Origin: Hydrogenothermus marinus
GTDB lineage: Bacteria > Aquificota > Aquificia > Aquificales > Hydrogenothermaceae
Direction of reading: 5' to 3'
Length of the DNA: 64,000 nt
Assembly (NCBI RefSeq): GCF_003688665.1
Contig: NZ_REFO01000010.1
Coordinates: forward strand, 124,001 to 188,000
Below the pieces are notes generated by a model that had not been told where the DNA came from, made no database searches, and was given only the letters and a program-made list of their open reading frames with translations. Made by a program: the position numbers and the translations under genes. Positions 49,984-63,354 of the stretch are shown piece after piece. Numbering within the stretch: position 1 is the stretch's first letter; the number at the start of each line of letters is the position of its first letter.

Positions 49984-50440
49984 ATGAAATTTAATTACGG
50001 CAAAACCATTCTTCTTGGAATTATATTATTTACATTATTTACAATATCCTCATTTTTTTTTCTTACCTACTAAGTATAGTGTTTCTTTTGCAATAATGGA
50101 TATAGCCGTTATAGTTTTTGCATTTTTAGTTTGGCTTAATGATAAATATTATAATGAACAAATTAGTATTAGAGTTTTTTCCATAGCAGATAAAAAATTT
50201 ATAGAAGATGTTATTGTTAGACAGATGAATATGCATGGTATTTCTAATATTGTAAGAAAAGAGAACAAAATTGAGTTTTACAAAGGAAAAAATAAAGCAG
50301 GTGAAGTTAGATATAAATTAGATGAAAAAGGTAATCCACTTTACATTGATAAAAAATGGGTTATAGAAGTAGAAGCTCCTGAATATATTCTTCATAATAT
50401 AGATCATGAACTTTGGAGTTTAATAGGAACAAAACAGTAA
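49984..50440 (+). pseudogene. Two-helix membrane protein gene interrupted by a frameshift at a 9-T tract
   Basis: An ATG at 49984 with AGAGGA 5 nt upstream starts a membrane-type sequence (KTILLGIILFTLFTISS) that stops at 50071, just after nine T (50053-50061). Reading one T fewer joins it to a 130-residue open frame ending at 50440. The joined product is 151 residues with two transmembrane helices (about 8-27 and 32-50) and a soluble C-terminus (FIEDVIVRQMNMHGIS ... HELWSLIGTKQ). I do not recognise the family. The gene may be broken, rescued by slippage, phase-variable or a sequencing error. It stands directly upstream of the Pel operon. Confidence 0.6.
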
Positions 50441-50520: not shown

Positions 50521-50588
50521 ATTAAATATAATAAATAATGTTAAATATAATTATGGTAAATAAAAATTTAGTTAAAAAAGGAGTTATT

Positions 50589-51065
50589 ATGAAAAAATCT
50601 TTTTTTACAATATTATTAATATTTTTTTCGTTTTATTTATTATCTTGTTCTTCAGTAAAAGAAAATATAAAAGTAGGGAAATTACCTAAAAAAGGAATTA
50701 TTGTTGTTTACCCTTTTGAAAACTTCTCTCAAACTCCTTATGCAGGTGTGAAAGCAGCTTCTTTAACAAAGGGGATTTTATTAAGTAAAGGTTTTAAAGT
50801 AGTAGATGGTTATATTTTTGATGGTGAAAATATAAAATTAAAAAGCATTAAAAATTTTGATTATAAATTAACTGGTAAAGTAATAGAATGGAGATATAAA
50901 ACAGGAATAGATGGTGAACCTGCAGTTAGTTTGTATATACAAATTAAAAATAAAAATGGACATTTAATATGGTCTGCTACTGGATCAAAATCACAATGGG
51001 GACATAAATCTGTATCTTTAACAGCTCAAGAATTAATAGATGAGCTTGTTAGTAAAAGTAAATGA
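50589..51065 (+). CDS. pelC: Pel polysaccharide outer-membrane lipoprotein PelC
   Basis: This 158-residue lipoprotein has the signal KKSFFTILLIFFSFYLLSC ending in a lipobox Cys (residue 19 or so). The mature part IIVVYPFENFSQTPYAGVKAASLTKGILLSKGFKVV matches the PelC pattern (P-F-x-N-x-S/T-x-T-P-x-A-G). In Pseudomonas PelC forms a 12-subunit ring at the outer membrane that guides the polymer to PelB. Length is close to the Pseudomonas protein (172). The ATG at 50589 has AAAGGAG 6 nt upstream; an in-frame ATG 51 nt earlier would bury the signal peptide. It overlaps pelD by 4 nt. Confidence 0.8.
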   Translation: MKKSFFTILLIFFSFYLLSCSSVKENIKVGKLPKKGIIVVYPFENFSQTPYAGVKAASLTKGILLSKGFKVVDGYIFDGENIKLKSIKNFDYKLTGKVIEWRYKTGIDGEPAVSLYIQIKNKNGHLIWSATGSKSQWGHKSVSLTAQELIDELVSKSK

Positions 51066-52327
51066 AAGAAAGTTTAAAATCAAATATAAAAATAAATTTT
51101 AAAAGTTTAAAAGATATTTCTGTTATTTTTGAAATAATTGTAATATTTGTTGTATCTTTTTCTATAGGATATATTTTAAATAATCAAGATCCTCTATTTA
51201 TAAAAACCTCTAATTTTAATTATTTTTATATACCTATTTTGGTTTTATCTTTATTTTATGGTATGGGTGCTGGATTATTGTTACTATTTTTACTTACTAT
51301 TTCTGGTTTTATTTATTTAAAAGAGTTTCCTGAATTTTTTTTCTTAAATGGTTTGATGCTTTCTTTAATTTCAGGAGAATTTTATTTTTATTGGCGAAAA
51401 AAAATAGAATCAATAGAGTCTAAAGCAACATATTTAGAGGAAAAATTAAGAGAAATAGGTATAGCTGCACATACAATCAGAATATCTCATGATATATTGG
51501 AAAAAAGCTATATATCAAAACCTTATACAATAAGAGCTGTTTTACATAAAATACAAAAAGAAGAAAATATAGAAAATTTTTTTAAATTCATATCAAATCA
51601 ATTTTTTGTAGAAAGTTTTGTCTATGTGGAGTATGATTCTGAAAAAGAAGAAATAAAAAATGTGTATCCTTTTAATTCAGATAAAAAAAAGATAGATTTA
51701 GAGCATCCTTTGATTCAAAAAATGTTATTTTTGCAAGAGATTGTATATATAAAAGATATGATAGATATAAAAAATATAGATTATATAGCTACCATTCCTA
51801 TATTTGATATTAATGAAAAATTAAAAGCATTTTTTTTAATAGAACATATACCATTTATCCATTATAATATTGAAAATCTACTTTCTATACAGCTTGTTTC
51901 TCAGTATTTTTTATTTAATATAGCTAAACAAAAAGAAATTGAAGCTATTAGTAAAGAGAATATATTACCTGAATATATTCCATCTGATTTTAAATATGAA
52001 ATATTTAAACTACGTAAATTAAAAAAAATTTCAGATGTAGATTCTTCTATTGTAATAATAGAAGTAAAAAGTAGTTATTCTTCAATAATAGATAACTTCT
52101 TAGGACAAAGCCTTAGAGCTTTAGATTTTTATACAAAAATAGAAAATAAAGAGAATAATATTTTTATAATTGTCCTTCCCTTAATTGCTAAGGAAGGAGG
52201 TATTGGATTTATAAATAGATTATATGAGCAATTTGATTTTTTAGACCATAAATATAAATATTTTGTTTTTAATATTAAAGATTTAAATAAAGTGAATGAA
52301 ATTTTAAATAATTTGGTAAAAGGATAA
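51062..52327 (+). CDS. pelD: Pel regulatory inner-membrane protein PelD (c-di-GMP receptor)
   Basis: This 421-residue protein has four transmembrane helices within about 20-112 and a helical stalk (about 112-135). A GAF domain (about 165-295) and a degenerate GGDEF domain (about 305-421) follow, the same layout as Pseudomonas PelD (455). The GGDEF-like part lacks GGDEF but keeps an inhibitory-site RxxD, Arg352-Ala-Leu-Asp355, which in PelD binds c-di-GMP and switches on synthesis by PelF. It starts within the pelC stop (ATGA) and pelE follows after 4 nt. Confidence 0.8.
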   Translation: MKESLKSNIKINFKSLKDISVIFEIIVIFVVSFSIGYILNNQDPLFIKTSNFNYFYIPILVLSLFYGMGAGLLLLFLLTISGFIYLKEFPEFFFLNGLMLSLISGEFYFYWRKKIESIESKATYLEEKLREIGIAAHTIRISHDILEKSYISKPYTIRAVLHKIQKEENIENFFKFISNQFFVESFVYVEYDSEKEEIKNVYPFNSDKKKIDLEHPLIQKMLFLQEIVYIKDMIDIKNIDYIATIPIFDINEKLKAFFLIEHIPFIHYNIENLLSIQLVSQYFLFNIAKQKEIEAISKENILPEYIPSDFKYEIFKLRKLKKISDVDSSIVIIEVKSSYSSIIDNFLGQSLRALDFYTKIENKENNIFIIVLPLIAKEGGIGFINRLYEQFDFLDHKYKYFVFNIKDLNKVNEILNNLVKG

Positions 52328-52331
52328 AATA

Positions 52332-53306
52332 TTGCAAAAAGAATACATATATTTTAGCATATTCTTTGAAATAGTTGGGATGGCAAATTTTTTGATATTT
52401 GATAATATATTTTCTATTTATGTTTATATAATTTTTCATTTAATAGCTAGTTTTTTTATTTCTTTAGTCTTAACTCCAATATTTGCTATTAAATTAAAAA
52501 AACAAAAAGTAAAAATAATAATATTACTAACTACTTTTATATTTATCACTTCAGTTATAGGAATTATTTTATCTATTATATATGTATTATTTTATAAAAC
52601 TTCAAAAAAGAAAAATCTAAATATAGATATATTAGAAACAGAAGATTTAGAAGAACATATTCCTATAATAAAACGAAGATTAGGAGAAGGCTCCTTACAA
52701 AACTTCAATAAAAATTTACCAGAACATATAAAGCTTAATATTCTATCTTTGCAAAAAAGATTAAAGTATCCAAATAAAGGTGTAATTTTAAAAGAAGCTT
52801 TTTCAGATAATAATGATGAAATTAGATTATTAGCTTTTAGTATCTTTTCAAAAGAAGAAGATAATATAAATAAAAATATATTTGAATTACAAAAGAAACT
52901 AGAAAATGTAAATTCTAAAGAAGAAAAAGCAGATATATATAAAAATATAGCTGTTTTATATTGGGAAAGTATATTCCTTGGTATTGTAGATGAAGAATTA
53001 AAAAATTACTATTTGGATTTGTCAAAAGAATATTTTTTAAAAGCTCTTAGCTTAAAACAAGATCCAGAAATAAAATTTTATCTTGGAAGAATCGCTTTAT
53101 TAGAAAAAGATTATAAGCTTGCAGAAGAATATTTAAGTAAAGCTTATGAATTAGGAAATAGAAAAGTTATCCCTTATCTAATGGAAATCTATTATGAAAA
53201 AAAGGATTTTAAGAAAATTTTTAATTTAGTTAAAAATATTGATTTATATTCTATACATCCAAATTTTTATTTTAATTACAAGGTATGGTCTGAAGATGAA
53301 ATCTAA
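52332..53306 (+). CDS. pelE: Pel inner-membrane TPR protein PelE
   Basis: This 324-residue protein has membrane helices at about 5-27, 30-52 and 60-88, a cytoplasmic helical region, and at least two clear TPR units (EYFLKALSLKQDPEIKFYLGRIALLEKDYKLAEEYLSKAYEL). PelE of Pseudomonas (329) has the same size and build and bridges PelD, PelF and PelG. The start appears to be the TTG at 52332, with AAGGA 7 nt upstream. Its last 11 nt overlap pelF. Sequence signatures of PelE are weak, so position carries much of the call. Confidence 0.72.
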   Translation: MQKEYIYFSIFFEIVGMANFLIFDNIFSIYVYIIFHLIASFFISLVLTPIFAIKLKKQKVKIIILLTTFIFITSVIGIILSIIYVLFYKTSKKKNLNIDILETEDLEEHIPIIKRRLGEGSLQNFNKNLPEHIKLNILSLQKRLKYPNKGVILKEAFSDNNDEIRLLAFSIFSKEEDNINKNIFELQKKLENVNSKEEKADIYKNIAVLYWESIFLGIVDEELKNYYLDLSKEYFLKALSLKQDPEIKFYLGRIALLEKDYKLAEEYLSKAYELGNRKVIPYLMEIYYEKKDFKKIFNLVKNIDLYSIHPNFYFNYKVWSEDEI

Positions 53307-54777
53307 TATAGATATACTGATAATTGGAGAAGGAACATATCCATATATAAGAGGAGGAGTTTCTTCTTGGATTCATCAATTAATATCAGGTCTTCCTGAG
53401 TTTAAATTTGGAGTTTTATTCATAGGAAGTAGAAGAGAAGATTATGGAGAAAAAAGATATAAATTCCCTGATAATTTAGTTTATTTTGATGAAATATATA
53501 TTTTTGATAAGGAAGAACTACCTATACCTAAAAGAAGAAAACTAAAAAAAGAATATTACCAACAAATAGAAACAGTTCATAAATCCTTTAATAAAGAAGG
53601 TAATAATTTAGATGCTATTAATAGACTGATTGAAAATATATCTTTAGAAGATTTTCTCTATTCAAATGTATCTTGGGAATTTATAGTTAATACTTACTTG
53701 GAAAAATATGAAAATGAATCATTTATTGATTACTTTTGGACAATTCGTAATATGCATATACCCCTGTGGGAAATATTTAAGGCTATAAATCGTATTCCAA
53801 GAATAAAGATTGTTCATTCTCCTTCAACTGGTTATGCAGGCTTTTTAGCAGGACTTCTTAAACTCAATAGAAATATCCCTTATATACTTACAGAGCACGG
53901 AATATATACAAGAGAAAGGAAAATTGATTTACTTACTTCAGATTGGTTTTCCACTAGAAGAAGATTCCTTAAAAGTATGGAAGAATCTTCAGGATTAGAA
54001 TTTGTATGGAATAAATTTTTTGAAAGTATAGGAAGATTTAGCTATTATACGGCAGATAAAATTTTATCATTATATGAAAAAGCTAGACAGATACAAATTG
54101 AATATGGAGCACCTAAAGAAAAGACAATGGTTATACCTAATGGTGTAAATATAGATAGATTAAAATCATGTTTAGAAAAAAGACCTTCAAAAAATCCAAA
54201 AGTAATAGGTTTAATAGGAAGAGTTGTTCCTATTAAAGATATAAAAACATTTATAAAAGCTATGAGAATTGTTGTAAATAAAATACCTGATGCTGAAGGA
54301 TGGGTTGTTGGTCCAACAGATGAAGATCCTGAATATTATGAAGAATGCAAAAATTTAGTAAAGGTTTTAGATTTAGAAAAAAATGTAAAATTTTTAGGCT
54401 TTCAGAATATATTAGATATTTTCCCAAAAATCTCTGTAAATACTCTTACTTCTATTAGTGAAGGAATGCCTCTTTCTATATTAGAAGGTTTTGCTGCAGG
54501 TGTTCCTGCAGTTACTACAGATGTAGGTTCTTGCTTTGATATTATATATGGTGGACTAAATGAAGAAGATAAAAAGTTAGGTAATGCTGGTTTTGTTTGT
54601 AAAGTTGCAGATGCTAAAGATTTAGCAAAACATTATATAAAACTTTTAGAAAATGAAGCCCTTTGGAAAAAATGTCAGCAGGTGGCTTTAGAAAGGGTTA
54701 ATAAGTTTTATACTCAAGAATTATTTTTTTCTAATTATAAAAAATTATATTACGAGGCTTTATCTTGGCAGGAATAG
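53296..54777 (+). CDS. pelF: Pel glycosyltransferase PelF
   Basis: This 493-residue GT4-family retaining glycosyltransferase polymerises the Pel chain from UDP-sugars at the inner face of the inner membrane. The PelF-specific N-terminus IGEGTYPYIRGGVSSWIHQLISGLPE is clear. VIGLIGRVVPIKDIKTFIKAM and SEGMPLSILEGFAAGVPAVTTDVGSC with the Ex7E pair (Glu389, Glu397) follow. Length agrees with Pseudomonas PelF (507). The ATG at 53296, inside pelE, was chosen because it begins the conserved N-terminus; its ribosome site is poor, suggesting coupled translation. Confidence 0.92.
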   Translation: MKSNIDILIIGEGTYPYIRGGVSSWIHQLISGLPEFKFGVLFIGSRREDYGEKRYKFPDNLVYFDEIYIFDKEELPIPKRRKLKKEYYQQIETVHKSFNKEGNNLDAINRLIENISLEDFLYSNVSWEFIVNTYLEKYENESFIDYFWTIRNMHIPLWEIFKAINRIPRIKIVHSPSTGYAGFLAGLLKLNRNIPYILTEHGIYTRERKIDLLTSDWFSTRRRFLKSMEESSGLEFVWNKFFESIGRFSYYTADKILSLYEKARQIQIEYGAPKEKTMVIPNGVNIDRLKSCLEKRPSKNPKVIGLIGRVVPIKDIKTFIKAMRIVVNKIPDAEGWVVGPTDEDPEYYEECKNLVKVLDLEKNVKFLGFQNILDIFPKISVNTLTSISEGMPLSILEGFAAGVPAVTTDVGSCFDIIYGGLNEEDKKLGNAGFVCKVADAKDLAKHYIKLLENEALWKKCQQVALERVNKFYTQELFFSNYKKLYYEALSWQE

Positions 54778-56141
54778 GTTTTGAATTAAGAAAAATACTA
54801 AAGAAAAATAAGATAAGTTCTTTATTTGAAGCTTATGGATATGCTGCTATCTTATCTGCAGGTGGATGGGTAATATCTATTCTGGCAATAATTTTAGTTG
54901 GACTTATCAATATATCAATATATGGAAATTCAGCTGATATTATAAAATTTCAGGTAAGTGTTACATATCTAATTTCTTTAAGCTTAATATTATCTGGCTT
55001 TCATCAGTTAGTTTTTACAAGATTTGTTGCAGATAGAATATATGAAGGTAAAGAGGAAGAAATTGTACCTAATTTTTTTGGTATTTTAACTCTAAATACT
55101 GCTTTGTCTTTATTATTTTCCATTATTTATATTTATTTATTTTTAAAAGATGTAAAAAATATATATTTTGTTACTACTTTTTTATTTAGTTTGATTTTAC
55201 TTTCTAATCTTTGGATAATAAATATTTTAGCTATAAGTGTAAAAAAATATAGATATGTTGTTTTGTCTTATTTTTTCTCATATCTATTAATCATAGTTTT
55301 TTCATATTTTATAGGTTATTTTGGATTAGCTTATTTGCTTATTTCTTTTTTCTTAGGAAATTTAATATTATTTATTTTATTGCTTTATTTAATTTTAAAA
55401 AATTATCAATTTTTTGAAGTTTTATCTTTTGATTTTATAAAAGCTTATAAACAATATTTTCCATTAGCATTAGCAGGTTTTTTCTTTAATCTTGGGATAT
55501 GGGCTGATGAATATATATTTTGGTATTCACCATTAACTGGTGAAGATATAATTGGAAAGATTAGATCATCTGTCGTTTATGATTTACCTTTGTTTTTAGC
55601 TTATTTATCAATTATTCCAGGTATGGCTGTTTTTTTCTTAAGATTAGAAGCAGATTTTGCTGAATATTATGAAAAATATTTCAAGGGTGTTGTAGAAGGA
55701 GCTACATTAGAAACCTTAGTTAGATTTAAAGAACAGATGATAGACATAGTTAGAATTTCAATAAAAGAAGCCATAGTTTTACAAGGTATATTCAATATTA
55801 TACTCTATATAACTGCACCTTTAATTTTTTCTATATTCAATTTACCTTCAGCTGCAATACCACTATTTTATATAGATATGATAGCCACGCAGCTTCAACT
55901 CTTAGTAATGAACATACTTGCTATTTTATTTTATTTAGATAGAAGATATGAAACATTGATTATTACAATAATAATGGCAGTATTTAACATTATTTTGCCA
56001 ATAATAACTATAATATTAGGTCCCTATTATTATGGATATGGAACAGCTTTAGCAATGTTAATTGCTTCTACTATTGGTTTAATTTATTTAGATAAAGTTA
56101 TGAGGAGATTAGAGTATGAAACTTTTATGCTACAAAGATAA
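54765..56141 (+). CDS. pelG: Pel inner-membrane transporter PelG
   Basis: This 458-residue multi-pass protein has about 12 helices. It begins MAGIGFELRKILKKN, the PelG N-terminal signature, and its length is almost identical to Pseudomonas PelG (456). It belongs to the MOP/Wzx-like exporters and carries the polymer across the inner membrane with PelD, PelE and PelF. The start is a TTG inside pelF (13-nt overlap). The stop overlaps pelA by 26 nt. Confidence 0.92.
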   Translation: MAGIGFELRKILKKNKISSLFEAYGYAAILSAGGWVISILAIILVGLINISIYGNSADIIKFQVSVTYLISLSLILSGFHQLVFTRFVADRIYEGKEEEIVPNFFGILTLNTALSLLFSIIYIYLFLKDVKNIYFVTTFLFSLILLSNLWIINILAISVKKYRYVVLSYFFSYLLIIVFSYFIGYFGLAYLLISFFLGNLILFILLLYLILKNYQFFEVLSFDFIKAYKQYFPLALAGFFFNLGIWADEYIFWYSPLTGEDIIGKIRSSVVYDLPLFLAYLSIIPGMAVFFLRLEADFAEYYEKYFKGVVEGATLETLVRFKEQMIDIVRISIKEAIVLQGIFNIILYITAPLIFSIFNLPSAAIPLFYIDMIATQLQLLVMNILAILFYLDRRYETLIITIIMAVFNIILPIITIILGPYYYGYGTALAMLIASTIGLIYLDKVMRRLEYETFMLQR

Positions 56142-58812
56142 ACTAGTTATATTATTTGCCTTAATTATAATGTCTGAAGCATTTAGTAAAAATTTAGCCT
56201 TTTATTATGATAAAGACGTACCAGAAGAACTATTAAAAGTTTATGATTATGTTGTAGTTAATGTAGAAGATATTTCTAAGAATGTATTAAAAAAATATAA
56301 TAAAAAATTAGTAGCTTATATAAGTATAGAGGAGGTTTCAGATAAAACAAAAGCTAAAAAAGAATGGATTTTAGGTAAAAACAAAAACTGGGATTCTTTA
56401 GTTACAGATATTAGAAATAAGGATTATAGAAAGTCCTTATTAAATAAAATAAAAAATTTTAGAAAAGAAGGAATAAATAGTTTCTTTTTTGATACATTAG
56501 ACTCTTATCAATTAGCTTTAAAAAAGAAAGATTGGAAAAGTTATGAAAATGCTTTGGCAAATTTTATAATTGAAGTAAAAAAGCAATTTCCGAATTCAAA
56601 AATTTTCTTAAATAGAGGATTTGAGGTGTTTGACAAAGTTTATCCATATATTAATGGTGTTGTTGCAGAATCTCTATTTAGGGGATATAACGGGAAAAAT
56701 TATTATGAAGTTTCAAAAGAAGATAGAAAATGGCTAATAAATAAATTAAATTACATAAAATCCAAAAATATTCCTGTTTATGTTATAGATTATGTCAAGC
56801 CAAATGAAAAAAATTTAGCAAGAAAATTAGCAGAAAAAATAGAAAAGTTAGGATTTATACCATATATTACAAACAAAGATTTATCAATTATAGGCCTATC
56901 TAATTTTGAGATATTTCCAAGAAAAGTTTTAGTTATTTATAAGACTAAGGATGATGTAGCATATTCTAATGCCCATAGATTAATTCAAATGCCATTAGAA
57001 TATTTAGGATATGTAGCTGATTTAAAAACTCCAAAAGAGGCAATGCAGTTAAAACATACAATAGATAGATATGCCGGAATGGTAGTATGGCTTGAAAATG
57101 ATATAGTTAAAAATTATGATAAATTTTATAATTGGATATTAAAAAGAATCAAAAATGGCAATAAAATTCTATTTTTAGGATATTTTGGATTTCCAGAAAC
57201 GCAAAGGTATCTAAAGCCTTTAGGTTTAACTGCTGAAAATAACAAAGCTGGCTTTTTCAGTAAAAACAAAGTTATCTTTCAAGATAAAATTGTAGGGTTT
57301 GAAGAAAAACCTCCTTTAAACATAACTCCAGATAGCTTAATAAAAACCAATAAAGGAAAGCCTCTATTAATATTAAAAAATAGTAAAAATCAAGAGTTTC
57401 ATCCTATTACTATAACACCATGGGGTGGATATGTTTTGGAACAATATTTGACTGTAGATGTTGGTGATATAATTAAATGGATACCAAATCCATTTGAATT
57501 ACTTAAAAGAAGTCTTAGACTAAAACCTTTCCCTGCACCAGATTTTACCACTGAAAATGGCATGAGAGTTTTATTTTCTCATATAGATGGAGATGGTTCA
57601 GTTTCTCTTTGTGAATTTTGCCCTACCAAAAAATTTGCAATGGAAGTAATAAGAGATGAAATACTGAAAAAATATAAAATTCCAATAGGAGTATCCTTTA
57701 TAGAAGCAGAAATTATGCCATATGGGGTTTATCCACAATACTCAAAAAAGGCTATAGAAGTGGCAAAATCTATTTATGCCCTTGATAATGTAGAACCGGC
57801 TTCACATACTTTTTCTCATCCATTTAAATGGATGGAAATTTCAAAGCTAAAAGATAAAAATGAAATTCCTGAAGGGTATAATTTAAAAATACCAAACTAT
57901 AAATTTAGCTTATATAGAGAGATAGTTGATTCTGTAAAAAATTTATCTAAACTTTGTCCTCCAAACAAAAAAGTAAATATTTTATATTGGTCAGGCGATT
58001 GCAATCCTCCAAAAAAAGCTTTAAAAATAGCTTATGAACATAATATATTAAATATTAATGGTGGTGATACATACATAACAAAAGACAGGCCTTTTTTGTC
58101 ATTAGTAGCTCCAGCCGGATTAAAAAGAGGAGAATATTATCAAATATATGACGGAGAACAAAATGAAGAGCTCTATACAGATGATTTTACCAAAAACTTT
58201 TGGGGATATAAAAAAGTAATAGAAACTTTCCAATTAACAGACAAACCAAGAAGATTGAAGCCAATTGATATTTATTATCACTTTTTTTCTGGAACAAAAC
58301 TTGCAAGTTTAAATGCATTAAAAGAAGTTTATAACTATGCTTTAAAACAAGATGTAATTCCTATGAAAGTTTCAGAATATATTCTGAAAGTTCTTGATTT
58401 TTACCATAGTGCTATTGCAAAAGAAGGAGATTATTGGATAATAAAGACAGATAAAAATTTAAGAACACTCAAAGTTCCAAAAGGCTTTGGATATCCTAAT
58501 TTAGAAACAAGTAAAGGTGTAATAGGTTTTTATCCATATAATGACCAACTTTATATAAGTTTAGATGGCTCTGGAAATTATAAAATAAAATTTACAGAAA
58601 ATAGACCAAATCAAACTTACATAAAACAGACAAATGCAAGAATAAAAAAGGTAAATAAAAATGAATTTAGTTTAAAAGGGTATCAACCTGTAAAGGTAAT
58701 ATTTAACAAATTACAAAATTGCAAGATATATACAAAAAATAAATATAAAAAAATTAAGAATATGCTAATCTTCAACACGGAAAAAGTGGAGTTTAAGCTT
58801 GAGTGCAACTAA
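56116..58812 (+). CDS. pelA: Pel hydrolase/deacetylase PelA
   Basis: This 898-residue periplasmic enzyme has a signal peptide (LVILFALIIMSEAFS). A GH114-type hydrolase domain (about 25-255) shows FFFDTLD (Asp126) and NRGFE (Glu170). A flavodoxin-like middle (about 265-440) and a CE-type deacetylase domain (about 480-740) follow, with SHIDGDGS (Asp491, Asp493) and PASHTFSHPF (His564, His568). A C-terminal beta domain ends it. All catalytic residues match Pseudomonas PelA (948). It deacetylates the polymer, making it cationic, and can trim it. GAGGAG precedes the ATG. In Pseudomonas pelA comes first; here it follows pelG. Confidence 0.92.
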   Translation: MKLLCYKDKLVILFALIIMSEAFSKNLAFYYDKDVPEELLKVYDYVVVNVEDISKNVLKKYNKKLVAYISIEEVSDKTKAKKEWILGKNKNWDSLVTDIRNKDYRKSLLNKIKNFRKEGINSFFFDTLDSYQLALKKKDWKSYENALANFIIEVKKQFPNSKIFLNRGFEVFDKVYPYINGVVAESLFRGYNGKNYYEVSKEDRKWLINKLNYIKSKNIPVYVIDYVKPNEKNLARKLAEKIEKLGFIPYITNKDLSIIGLSNFEIFPRKVLVIYKTKDDVAYSNAHRLIQMPLEYLGYVADLKTPKEAMQLKHTIDRYAGMVVWLENDIVKNYDKFYNWILKRIKNGNKILFLGYFGFPETQRYLKPLGLTAENNKAGFFSKNKVIFQDKIVGFEEKPPLNITPDSLIKTNKGKPLLILKNSKNQEFHPITITPWGGYVLEQYLTVDVGDIIKWIPNPFELLKRSLRLKPFPAPDFTTENGMRVLFSHIDGDGSVSLCEFCPTKKFAMEVIRDEILKKYKIPIGVSFIEAEIMPYGVYPQYSKKAIEVAKSIYALDNVEPASHTFSHPFKWMEISKLKDKNEIPEGYNLKIPNYKFSLYREIVDSVKNLSKLCPPNKKVNILYWSGDCNPPKKALKIAYEHNILNINGGDTYITKDRPFLSLVAPAGLKRGEYYQIYDGEQNEELYTDDFTKNFWGYKKVIETFQLTDKPRRLKPIDIYYHFFSGTKLASLNALKEVYNYALKQDVIPMKVSEYILKVLDFYHSAIAKEGDYWIIKTDKNLRTLKVPKGFGYPNLETSKGVIGFYPYNDQLYISLDGSGNYKIKFTENRPNQTYIKQTNARIKKVNKNEFSLKGYQPVKVIFNKLQNCKIYTKNKYKKIKNMLIFNTEKVEFKLECN

Positions 58813-59743
58813 GGAAATTTTAGAAAATAAAAAAGTAATATCTAAATATGAACTACTCGCTATTATTATTTTATTTATAACTATTCTTATAATACTTTTT
58901 CCAAAAGGAAAATTGGAAACAATGATAGATATGGAAACAAGTAATTATGAAGTTTCAATTAAATATTTAGAAAGTTTATCAAAAGCATACCCAAAACATG
59001 CTTTTTTTAAAATAGCTCTTTTACGATTTTATTTAAAAACTGGTAAACTAAAAAAAGCAGAAAATTTAATTGAAAATTGTCAAAAAAACAAACAATGTAT
59101 AGGAAATATTGGTTTTATTAAGAATAGTTATTTCGTTTATAAAAATCTATATTTTAAATCTAAAAATAAAAAATATTTAATAGAAGCGAAAAAATATTTA
59201 AGTTTAATTCTAAAGCTTAATCCTACAGAAACTAATTATGAATTTGTATTAAATGAAAGTAAATCTATGAATTTTGTAGATTTAAGCTATAAAACATTAA
59301 AAAAATTAGTAAAAATAAATCCTAAAAAAGAATACCTAAAAGATCTTCTAAATATAAGTCTATATTATAAAGATTATAAAGCTGCTTTAAATATCTTAGA
59401 TATACTTTACAAAAAAGAAAAAAATATAAAATATTTAGAAAAGAAAGCACAGATTTATGAATACTTAAAACATTCAGAAAAAGCAAAAGATATATATTTA
59501 ACTTTATTTAAAATTACAAAGAATGAAAATGTAAAAACAAAATACTTTTTGAAAGCAGTTTATATTCTTCTTTGGAATAAAAAATATAAAGAAGCTATAA
59601 ATATAGCAAAAAGATATGAAAATTATTTTTTAAAAACAAGAAATAGATTAGCTTTGAAAAAAATACTTGATATTTATCTTCAAACTGGAAATTTAAAATT
59701 AGCAAGAATTTTATCATTAAAAATATTAAAGGTAATAAATTAA
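58799..59743 (+). CDS. Membrane-anchored TPR protein, first part of a split PelB
   Basis: This 314-residue protein has one transmembrane helix (about 18-37, ELLAIIILFITILIILF) and then repeated TPR-like helices in a periplasmic orientation. In Pseudomonas, PelB (1,193 residues) starts with such an anchor followed by TPRs and a C-terminal porin. Here the anchor is a separate protein. The TTG start overlaps pelA by 14 nt, with GGAG 8 nt upstream. The sequence itself carries no PelB-specific motif that I can name; the assignment rests on order and build. Confidence 0.6.
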   Translation: MSATKEILENKKVISKYELLAIIILFITILIILFPKGKLETMIDMETSNYEVSIKYLESLSKAYPKHAFFKIALLRFYLKTGKLKKAENLIENCQKNKQCIGNIGFIKNSYFVYKNLYFKSKNKKYLIEAKKYLSLILKLNPTETNYEFVLNESKSMNFVDLSYKTLKKLVKINPKKEYLKDLLNISLYYKDYKAALNILDILYKKEKNIKYLEKKAQIYEYLKHSEKAKDIYLTLFKITKNENVKTKYFLKAVYILLWNKKYKEAINIAKRYENYFLKTRNRLALKKILDIYLQTGNLKLARILSLKILKVIN

Positions 59744-61333
59744 ATGAAAAGAATAATTGTTTCTTTAATTTTAATAGTATTGCTAATAAATCCTGTATTT
59801 AGTAAACAAAAATTTGATTTACAACTTTATGAGCTTATGTATAAAAGTTTTATCTATACGCAAGATTTAGAACATGCTTATATTGTTGCAAAAAAAGTAC
59901 TAAAAGTTATACCTTTTAGTATAAAATGGAGGAAAAGAGTTGCACAACTAGCTCTTTGGCTTGGAAAAACAGACGAAGCATATAAAAACTATCTTTATAT
60001 TTACAATAAAACTAAAGATCCTTCTATAGAAAAAATACTATTTACCTTTTCTTATCCTGAAATTATTAATCTGAAAATACAAAAATATGAAACACAGGTA
60101 AAAAAAGGAAATTATCAAAATGCTTTAGAACTTGCAAAATTGTATGAATATACTGGTTATCCAGAAAAATCTCTAAAGTTATTAAAGCAAATTTATGAAA
60201 AAACTAATAAAAAAGAGTATTTATATGAATACTTAATCTATGCAACTAAATTAGGTGAAACTCATATTTTAGTTAAATATATTCAAACTTTAAAAGTTTT
60301 CCCTTTAGAAAAAAAATATGACATAGTATATCTTTTAATAGCAAAAGGATATTATGATAAGGCACTGGAAGTATTAAGATATGTGCAAGATTTACCAAAA
60401 GATAAAACTTATTATAATTTACTGCTATTTTTACTTTTGAAAAATCAAAAATATAAAGAATTTATAAAAGTAGTTAAATATCTTTTAATAAAACAACAGA
60501 TTGATATTTCTTATATATATCCTCTTTTAGATTATTATTATAGGAAAAAGGATTTACAATCTTTAGAATTTATATACTCTAAAATCTATAAAATAAAAAA
60601 AACAAAAGCATTTATAAAAGAATATATAAATATACTTATAGAAAACAAAAAATTCCAACAAGCTTTAGAAATATTAAATGAAAACACGAGTATATTTAGT
60701 GATAAAGAATATCTGTTTTATTTAGCAAAAATTTATGCAGGACTAAAAAATAAAGAAAAAGTTGCCAAGATTTACAAAATTTTATTAAAAGATTATAGAG
60801 AACAACTTTCCCTAAATGAAAAGAAAGAGATTTTATGGTTTTTTATAGATAATTCTGAAGAATATTATAAGTTATTAAAAACATATCTACCTTTCTTTAA
60901 AAAAGAAAAAGATTTATATATAGAAGTTATTACTGCATATATGAATATCCAAGAATTAGATAAAGCTTATAGTTTAGCTAAAAAATATATAAATAAAGAG
61001 AAAAATAATTTATCCTTTTTAATATTATATGCAGATATATTAAACATACAAACAAAATTTGATGAAAGTTCTTATTATTACAATAAAGCATGGATTTTAG
61101 CTAATAAACAGCTAAGAATAAATCCAAATATAATAAACAATAAAGAATTTTTAAGGAATTATATTAGGCTTTCTTTCAAATATAGCTCACCTAAAAAAAT
61201 AAAAAAATTACTAAAAATTGCAAAAAATACCCTTAATTATAATGAATACTTAAACCTAATATTAGATTATTATCTATATTTAGGAGAATATGATCCATCC
61301 TTTTATATTTACAACTATAAGAGGATTTTCTAA
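59744..61333 (+). CDS. Exported TPR protein, second part of a split PelB
   Basis: This 529-residue protein has a signal peptide (KRIIVSLILIVLLINPVFS, cleavage before KQKF) and is otherwise helical TPR-like repeats (ELAKLYEYTGYPEKSLKLLKQIYEKTNK; KALEVLRYVQDLPKDK; FQQALEILNENTSIF). No membrane helix is seen, so it should be periplasmic. TPRs of PelB in Pseudomonas bind PelA and guide the polymer. The ATG follows the previous stop by one base and its own stop shares one base with the next ATG. The separate signal peptide shows this is not a recent frameshift of one long gene. Confidence 0.65.
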   Translation: MKRIIVSLILIVLLINPVFSKQKFDLQLYELMYKSFIYTQDLEHAYIVAKKVLKVIPFSIKWRKRVAQLALWLGKTDEAYKNYLYIYNKTKDPSIEKILFTFSYPEIINLKIQKYETQVKKGNYQNALELAKLYEYTGYPEKSLKLLKQIYEKTNKKEYLYEYLIYATKLGETHILVKYIQTLKVFPLEKKYDIVYLLIAKGYYDKALEVLRYVQDLPKDKTYYNLLLFLLLKNQKYKEFIKVVKYLLIKQQIDISYIYPLLDYYYRKKDLQSLEFIYSKIYKIKKTKAFIKEYINILIENKKFQQALEILNENTSIFSDKEYLFYLAKIYAGLKNKEKVAKIYKILLKDYREQLSLNEKKEILWFFIDNSEEYYKLLKTYLPFFKKEKDLYIEVITAYMNIQELDKAYSLAKKYINKEKNNLSFLILYADILNIQTKFDESSYYYNKAWILANKQLRINPNIINNKEFLRNYIRLSFKYSSPKKIKKLLKIAKNTLNYNEYLNLILDYYLYLGEYDPSFYIYNYKRIF

Positions 61334-63354
61334 TGTGGAAAAAATTATTATTAATAATTTTAATAACAGCTTTTAGTAGTTTTGCAGAAAGTTATATTAA
61401 TATATATAGTATTCAAGTAATAAGTACAAAAGATATTAAAGAAGCAAAAAATGTTTACAAAAAAATTTCTAAATATCCATATGCAAGAATTGAAAAGATT
61501 GGCTCTTACTATGTTGTTAGAGTTGGTAATACAAGGTTTACAAAAGAACTAAAACCTTTATTAAAAGAGATTAAAAAATACTATAAAGATTCTTTTATTA
61601 GGATAGCTGATATTATTCCTGAAAGAATTATATTAGCTAATTTTAAATTTAAAAAAGAAAAAGTTAAATCTATGATTAAAGAAAAAAAACCTGATAATCA
61701 AGAAAAAATAAAAACTAAAAAAGAAGAAAAATTAAAATTTGTTCAAAATGTAAATAGTAGTTTGGTAGAAAGTTATATTAATATATATAGTATTCAAGTA
61801 ATAAGTACAAAAGATATTAAAGAAGCAAAAAATGTTTACAAAAAAATTTCTAAATATCCATATGCAAGAATTGAAAAGATTGGCTCTTACTATGTTGTTA
61901 GAGTTGGTAATACAAGGTTTACAAAAGAACTAAAACCTTTATTAAAAGAGATTAAAAAATACTATAAAGATTCTTTTATTAGGATAGCTGATATTATTCC
62001 TGAAAGAATTATATTAGCTAATTTTAAATTTAAAAAAGAAAAAGTTAAATCTATGATTAAAGAAAAAAAACCTGATAATCAAGAAAAAATAAAAACTAAA
62101 AAAGAGGAAAAATTTAAAATAGTTAAAGATACAAAAGATATTTTGAGTTTGATTCCAGATATAAATATTAAAAATAAAACAGTAAAAATAGAAAAAACAG
62201 AAAAACAGAAAATAAAAATACAACAAGATAAAGTACTAAATATAGAAATTAATGAAATAGATAAAGATGGAATAAACAAAACATTAAAAAAATACAAAGA
62301 TACCTTACCTTATAGAGATAAAGTTTATGCAGAAGATATTGTTGGAAGAGTAAATGAAGCATTAAATACTTCTTATAGAAACTTAAAAAGAAGTAAGGAA
62401 GATTACCTTGCATATAAACAATTTGTAGATTTATATACAAAATATTCAAACAGATTTAAATCTCATATTAATTATGAATATTTTGAAGATGTTTCAAGAT
62501 TTTATCTTAAATATCAATTAAAAAAATATCTTTGGCTAAATAGTTATCTTTATATAGATAATGAAAATTATTTCACAAATTCTTATAAAAAAAGTAATTA
62601 TAAAAAATTGCCAAGTATTGATAGTTTATTAACAATAGGAATAAAAAAAATATTTAATTCTTCAGATATAATCATAAAGTTAGGAGCAAGAAAATCTGTA
62701 GAATTATTTCCTATTTTATCTATAGATTATAATTTCAAAACTAATAAATACTGGGATTCTACTTTATCCTTAGGAATAAATCAAAGAGCAGAAGAAAGTA
62801 ATCTTTCTTTTTATGGAGCATCTAAAACTAATTTAAAATACAGTACAACAATATCAATAAACTCAAAAAATGTTATATCTGGTAGTACTTCAATTAATAA
62901 TTATTATTCTCAAGATTTTAAAGAAATAGGTAATGGTTATTACTTTGAATCAAGATACTTACATAAATATAGAATAGGATATCCAGATTTTTCTAATTAT
63001 ATTCAGCTATCAGGAGGTTTTTATAATGAAAAATCAAATAAAACAGGTTCTATCAATAAAATTTTAATAACACCAAATACACAAGTTTTACCTGATAATT
63101 TTATAGAAGCATGTATAGGTTCTTTGTTTGGAATTAATTATATTGATAGTTATAAAAAACAATTAAGACCTTTTGTGGACACAAATATTTGCTACAATAC
63201 TGCTTATAACATCGGATATTCACTATTTTCTGGATTGGCTGGTGAAATGTTTGATAATGATAACTTATCTTTTGGAGTTTATATAGGTAAAGGATTTTTT
63301 GCAAATCCTTACACAATTTTTAGATTACAAATTTATTACACAAGATGGTTCTAA
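61333..63354 (+). CDS. pelB: PelB-like outer-membrane porin with two N-terminal SPOR domains
   Basis: This 673-residue protein has a signal peptide (LLLIILITAFSSFA) and two SPOR domains at about 19-100 and 146-227, each followed by a K/E linker (YSIQVIST, YARIEKIGSYYVVRVG). A bridging segment with LPYRDKVYAEDIVGRVNEAL (about 322-341) follows, then a beta-barrel of alternating strands to the end (IYYTRWF, an aromatic C-terminus as outer-membrane proteins have). The bridge and barrel resemble the C-terminal porin of PelB. SPOR domains bind glycan strands lacking stem peptides. The two SPOR-linker units are identical in DNA. The stop overlaps tsaD. Confidence 0.75.
   Translation: MWKKLLLIILITAFSSFAESYINIYSIQVISTKDIKEAKNVYKKISKYPYARIEKIGSYYVVRVGNTRFTKELKPLLKEIKKYYKDSFIRIADIIPERIILANFKFKKEKVKSMIKEKKPDNQEKIKTKKEEKLKFVQNVNSSLVESYINIYSIQVISTKDIKEAKNVYKKISKYPYARIEKIGSYYVVRVGNTRFTKELKPLLKEIKKYYKDSFIRIADIIPERIILANFKFKKEKVKSMIKEKKPDNQEKIKTKKEEKFKIVKDTKDILSLIPDINIKNKTVKIEKTEKQKIKIQQDKVLNIEINEIDKDGINKTLKKYKDTLPYRDKVYAEDIVGRVNEALNTSYRNLKRSKEDYLAYKQFVDLYTKYSNRFKSHINYEYFEDVSRFYLKYQLKKYLWLNSYLYIDNENYFTNSYKKSNYKKLPSIDSLLTIGIKKIFNSSDIIIKLGARKSVELFPILSIDYNFKTNKYWDSTLSLGINQRAEESNLSFYGASKTNLKYSTTISINSKNVISGSTSINNYYSQDFKEIGNGYYFESRYLHKYRIGYPDFSNYIQLSGGFYNEKSNKTGSINKILITPNTQVLPDNFIEACIGSLFGINYIDSYKKQLRPFVDTNICYNTAYNIGYSLFSGLAGEMFDNDNLSFGVYIGKGFFANPYTIFRLQIYYTRWF
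61386..62105 (+). repeat. Perfect 339-bp tandem duplication, period 381 bp, covering the SPOR domain
   Basis: 61386-61724 and 61767-62105 appear identical base for base, with an offset of 381 bp (127 codons, in frame). Between and after the copies the sequence diverges. Identity including third codon positions means a very recent event, gene conversion, or an assembly artefact. Confidence 0.9.

Follow-up and report, generated by a model that had tools for sequence, protein, structure and literature searches.

The window, a stretch of 64,000 nucleotides of DNA from the thermophilic bacterium Hydrogenothermus marinus, contains a complete pelCDEFGA operon of which P0001 is the last gene. All genes and features of the window described here are on the forward strand. 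The operon begins with the pelC lipoprotein gene (50538..51065), recognized by its match to the P. aeruginosa PelC structure (2.8e-16), and continues with pelD (51062..52327; Pfam PelD_GGDEF, 4.2e-07), a pelE-like gene assigned from its place and conservation in the operon (52332..53306), pelF (53239..54777; NCBIfam PelF, 3.5e-185), pelG (54765..56141; Pfam PelG, 7.9e-122) and pelA with its GH114 domain (56116..58812; Pfam Glyco_hydro_114). A small ORF is located upstream of pelC (50015-50440). Its homologue in genome G002 (L050 13829-14281) adjoins a bcs operon, which may mean that this locus formerly contained both bcs and pel.

PelB of H. marinus was found to consist of three chains. A 314-aa inner-membrane-anchored TPR chain (58799..59743) corresponds to the N-terminal module of canonical PelB, as judged from its homologues and a hydrophobic segment identified by eye; by eye it also resembles the N-terminus of betaproteobacterial PelB. 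The following 529-aa chain (59744..61333) is a periplasmic TPR solenoid that matches Pfam TPR, aligns to the TPR part of PelB from relatives and carries its own signal peptide (by eye). P0001 itself (61333..63354; 673 aa) encodes two SPOR domains followed by the PelB barrel. The ATG of P0001 overlaps the stop codon of the 529-aa TPR gene (TAATG), and the two chains are therefore probably translated together.

Splitting of PelB

The gene order pelC-D-E-F-G-A-(anchor TPR)-pelB is common in Aquificota. A homologue of the 314-aa anchor chain precedes pelB in most of them, and TPR and barrel are as a rule encoded together by a single pelB ORF of ~910-1000 aa, so that PelB is usually made of two chains. 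Genome G013, where the anchor TPR and pelB are fused into one 1253-aa chain, contained the only one-chain PelB found in Aquificota. Five plasmid-borne betaproteobacterial PelBs were also single chains, most of them visibly starting with a hydrophobic segment. Fission of pelB in pel operons of aquatic thermophiles has been reported (PMC7112194 Fig 5iii), and this probably is the two-chain Aquificota form.

PelB of H. marinus has two breaks. The first follows the anchor, as is usual in Aquificota, and the second comes directly ahead of the final two TPR hairpins. The second break falls near the start of the PelB fragment 762-1193 that was assembled with PelC for cryo-EM (PMC12141448), and this natural split just before the barrel resembles the engineered fragment of the PelBC structure. 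A frameshift was rejected as the cause of the TPR/barrel split because the barrel gene starts at an overlapping ATG and encodes a SPOR arm and a signal peptide of its own. A pelB broken into pieces of 761 and 209 aa, ~0.9 kb apart and insertion-like in appearance, was observed in genome G019 (L049 7694-11547).

Domains of P0001 and the tandem repeat

P0001 starts with a signal peptide (61333..61386), identified by eye from sequence and hydropathy. SPOR copy 1 (61405..61599; residues 25-89) and SPOR copy 2 (61786..61980; residues 152-216) are separated by a linker predicted to be disordered (61612..61788; residues 94-152, pLDDT <50). A Lys/Glu-rich linker of equally low confidence (61966..62259; residues 212-309, pLDDT <50) leads from SPOR 2 to two terminal TPR-like helical hairpins (62263..62445; helices 311-371 in the model), and these are followed by the PelB beta-barrel with 16 strands in the model (62452..63348).

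The earlier note had described two SPOR domains fused to a Pel-type porin, and named the absence of a profile match or a non-SPOR fold as results that would speak against it. Both the profile search and the fold came out in favor of SPOR. Pfam PF05036 matched P0001 in two stretches (9.6e-15, 55.1 bits), and each copy scored alone (1.2e-07, 32.3 bits) was above the curated cut-off of 21 bits. The AlphaFold2 model of copy 1 has the order beta-alpha-beta-beta-alpha-beta with a mean pLDDT of 89. The top Foldseek match of this model was the CwlC SPOR (probability 1.00, TM 0.66/0.75), with SPOR structures of DedD, the RlpA-glycan complex, DamX and FtsN ranked lower; the probabilities were high, whereas the small size of the domain kept the E-values modest (0.01-0.16).

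The PelB barrel was found on the same chain (Pfam PF24604 B-barrel_PelB_C, 2.7e-24), and the identification as PelB was upheld by operon context and structure. In the AlphaFold model of full-length P0001, both SPOR domains are followed by a pair of helical hairpins and 16 strands, with linkers of low confidence; this model matched PelB chain 9h80_M in Foldseek (E 8.7e-18, TM 0.81 on the target). A profile of the P0001 barrel family found P. aeruginosa PelB in the PDB (1.1e-12); profiles were needed here, as a direct PDB sequence search with P0001 gave no match. Only two hairpins of the TPR scaffold of PelB are left on P0001. Since the solenoid is encoded by the separate upstream gene, P0001 represents only the barrel portion of a PelB that has been split. 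The terminal TPRs of P. aeruginosa PelB dock PelC (PMC12141448), and we infer that the P0001 hairpins are equivalent to them.

Both SPOR domains lie within a 381-bp tandem duplication present in two copies (61374..62120; TRF, 98% match), which the earlier note did not mention. Positions 61386-61724 and 61767-62105 are identical base for base over 339 bp, and the mismatch map places the point differences between the copies only near both ends. The duplication is therefore either recent or its copies have been kept alike by conversion, and the two SPORs, lying inside a near-perfect repeat, were one module until lately. An assembly artefact is disfavored by the copy-specific differences at both ends and the unique spacer, as judged from the assembled sequence.

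SPOR domains bind glycan strands without stem peptides, and the glycan contacts of RlpA are Q270, R302, R309 and R311 (PMC6895207). In 17 aligned SPOR domains the glycan-contacting glutamine was invariant and one arginine nearly so. P0001 retains the glutamine (Gln28) and R63, corresponding to R311, with V61 in place of R309 and E54 in place of R302 (register by eye), so that of the three RlpA arginine positions only that of R311 is clearly kept. Judged from these residues, binding of denuded glycan by the P0001 SPORs is plausible. Amidase_3-type enzymes produce denuded glycan, and one such protein, a possible source of the SPOR ligand, is encoded in the H. marinus genome. The SPORs of Aquificaceae and of BcsC share two cysteines (C-x-Q and the R/K/E-x-C region; alignment A3 with L046, L053-L056, L039, L050 and L051), both of which are missing in the P0001 copies, suggesting that a disulfide was lost there.

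SPOR domains on Pel and cellulose exporters of Aquificota

A search for the SPOR plus PelB-porin architecture in other genomes, as proposed earlier, covered 136 Aquificota genomes, 45 of which had a PelB barrel. The barrel or TPR-barrel chain had a SPOR or SPOR-like domain close to its N-terminus in 15 of the 45 (G000, G029, G059, G062, G065, G066, G069, G115, G119, G120, G123, G124, G125, G127, and G132). Nine were above the Pfam cut-off and two below it (G059 with 17.0 and G127 with 17.6 bits); Pfam did not find those of G115, G119 and G132, which were called by our own iterated profile and alignment, while the SPOR-like call in G120 came from reading its N-terminus. The earlier note knew of no such fusion described for Pel systems. 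Our literature search agrees with this, but the fusion is not unique to H. marinus: the order SPOR-TPR-barrel, with TPR and barrel unsplit, recurs in other Aquificota.

PelBs of three families carried the domain, in every case close to the N-terminus of a chain other than the one with the inner-membrane module. Mapping the SPOR trait onto the barrel tree requires seven changes, and at least five gains or losses are forced by well-supported branches. Within the Sulfurihydrogenibium group G029 carries the SPOR and G012 and G033, with 89-92% barrel identity, do not. Tandem pairs of SPOR-like domains were also present on the PelBs of G123-G125, separately from the pair of P0001. Many two-chain PelBs are without SPOR, and so are many close relatives with the same operon.

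The SPOR subtype of P0001 also heads two BcsC-type cellulose exporters. The genes for these SPOR-TPR-BcsC proteins belong to bcs operons in the Hydrogenothermaceae genomes G002 (L050 9569-13093) and G014 (L039 3426-7310); judged by eye, both proteins also have a second, degenerate SPOR-like stretch at their start. The same subtype was present on a BcsB-type protein of G065 (L092 776-2875), beside which lies an ORF for a GT2-like glycosyltransferase (L092 3605-5515). It was also observed on a 261-aa protein of G059 with a likely transmembrane segment (L051 6933-7718), in a neighborhood without polysaccharide genes.

The SPOR nearest to that of P0001 was the G002 BcsC SPOR (41% identity). The nearest barrel was that of G014, a genome in which pel is preceded by a bcs operon encoding SPOR-BcsC and a ParA-like protein. 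These relationships suggest domain transfer between neighboring exporters, with the SPOR tree too weakly supported to show it. Derivation of the P0001 SPOR from a BcsC gene is a lead of the same kind; BcsC was not found in the H. marinus genome. Tentatively, and with rather less than even confidence, we propose that Aquificota share a swappable SPOR wall-anchor module that has repeatedly been grafted onto the unrelated Pel and cellulose exporters, where it would set the polymer exit site, and that it was recently doubled in H. marinus after PelB had split in three.

A proposed tether to the cell wall and comparison with known systems

What the analysis shows is the domains and their fold, the operon, the chain split, the duplication and the recurrence of the architecture. 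From these features we consider it fairly likely that the SPOR arm serves as a flexible link to peptidoglycan for an exporter whose covalent connection to the inner membrane has been lost. P0001 would be the outer-membrane chain of the three-part exporter, with the barrel and the last two TPR hairpins docking the PelC lipoprotein ring. The separate TPR chain and the inner-membrane-anchored TPR chain would carry the polymer through the periplasm, and the two SPORs on their flexible N-terminal arm would bind peptidoglycan glycan strands and hold the pore at the wall. The arm would thereby replace the covalent inner-membrane link of one-chain PelB, and the second SPOR, from the recent tandem duplication, would raise avidity or reach. 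SPOR was absent from the five plasmid-borne one-chain betaproteobacterial PelBs that made up the sample outside Aquificota (n=5), which agrees with anchor replacement. Only one one-chain PelB was found in Aquificota, and the sampling behind a tie between SPOR and loss of the inner-membrane anchor is therefore thin. As many two-chain PelBs are without SPOR, the tether is not obligatory.

Because the same SPOR subtype is found on exporters of two unrelated polymers, its partner is probably one common to both systems, such as the wall, rather than the polymer. The same observation speaks against the SPORs binding the exported polymer and guiding Pel into the barrel, as cellulose is chemically unrelated to Pel. 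SPOR is indeed a carbohydrate-binding fold (PMC6895207) and sits on an exporter chain, but its conserved glutamine corresponds to the one that contacts peptidoglycan, and we give this explanation little credence. Lying exactly at the TPR/barrel split, the P0001 SPORs could instead be a dock for proteins, bringing the barrel back together with the split-off TPR chain, PelA or PelC. In relatives, however, the SPOR stands in front of TPR and barrel on one chain, a layout that requires no such connection, which makes a dock quite improbable. The patchy gain and loss, together with two of the three RlpA arginine positions not being kept, would be expected if the SPORs were neutral passengers of domain shuffling in which wall binding was not kept. 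This too is unlikely in view of their repeated occurrence on exporters, the invariant glutamine and the open frame kept after duplication.

Tethering to the wall is compatible with a further role of the SPOR arm, and could have it as a consequence: the arm may target the pore to septa or new poles, which are rich in denuded glycan, so that Pel would emerge at one cell end. SPOR proteins generally localize to division sites (PMC6895207), and septal and polar placement of the PilQ secretin depends on AMIN domains (PMC10653833). By analogy such targeting is possible, but the lack of SPOR in many close relatives with the same operon leaves us doubtful. How envelope-spanning polysaccharide exporters pass through peptidoglycan and are positioned in it is poorly understood. 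The repeated gain and loss of SPOR on Pel and cellulose exporters suggests that these machines are pinned to the cell wall, and its presence or absence in near-identical PelBs of one genus makes the question of wall positioning testable.

P. aeruginosa PelB (PelBC, PDB 9h80) resembles the H. marinus system in its 16-stranded barrel, terminal TPRs, PelC partner and pel operon. It differs in being a single chain of 1193 aa that has a membrane helix at its N-terminus and for which SPOR is not mentioned, whereas H. marinus has three chains and two SPORs. SPOR is likewise unmentioned for the split pelB of PMC7112194, to which H. marinus adds the second split between TPR and barrel. FtsN, DamX, DedD, RlpA, and CwlC share the SPOR fold with P0001, and FtsN and RlpA the conserved glycan-contacting glutamine; these proteins have roles in division or wall cleavage and an arginine patch other than that of P0001. 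A literature search covering few of the subscription journals returned no report linking SPOR to PelB, BcsC or other polysaccharide exporters. A wall-binding domain on an outer-membrane pore is already known from LspD and PilQ. The LspD secretin of Legionella type II secretion carries an N-terminal SPOR on an outer-membrane export pore (PMC9239104), but is a multimer exporting proteins, whereas P0001 is a polysaccharide barrel. The PilQ secretin of type IV pili has tandem wall-binding domains before its outer-membrane pore that are required for septal and polar placement (PMC10653833), and these are of the AMIN fold while those of P0001 are of the SPOR fold.
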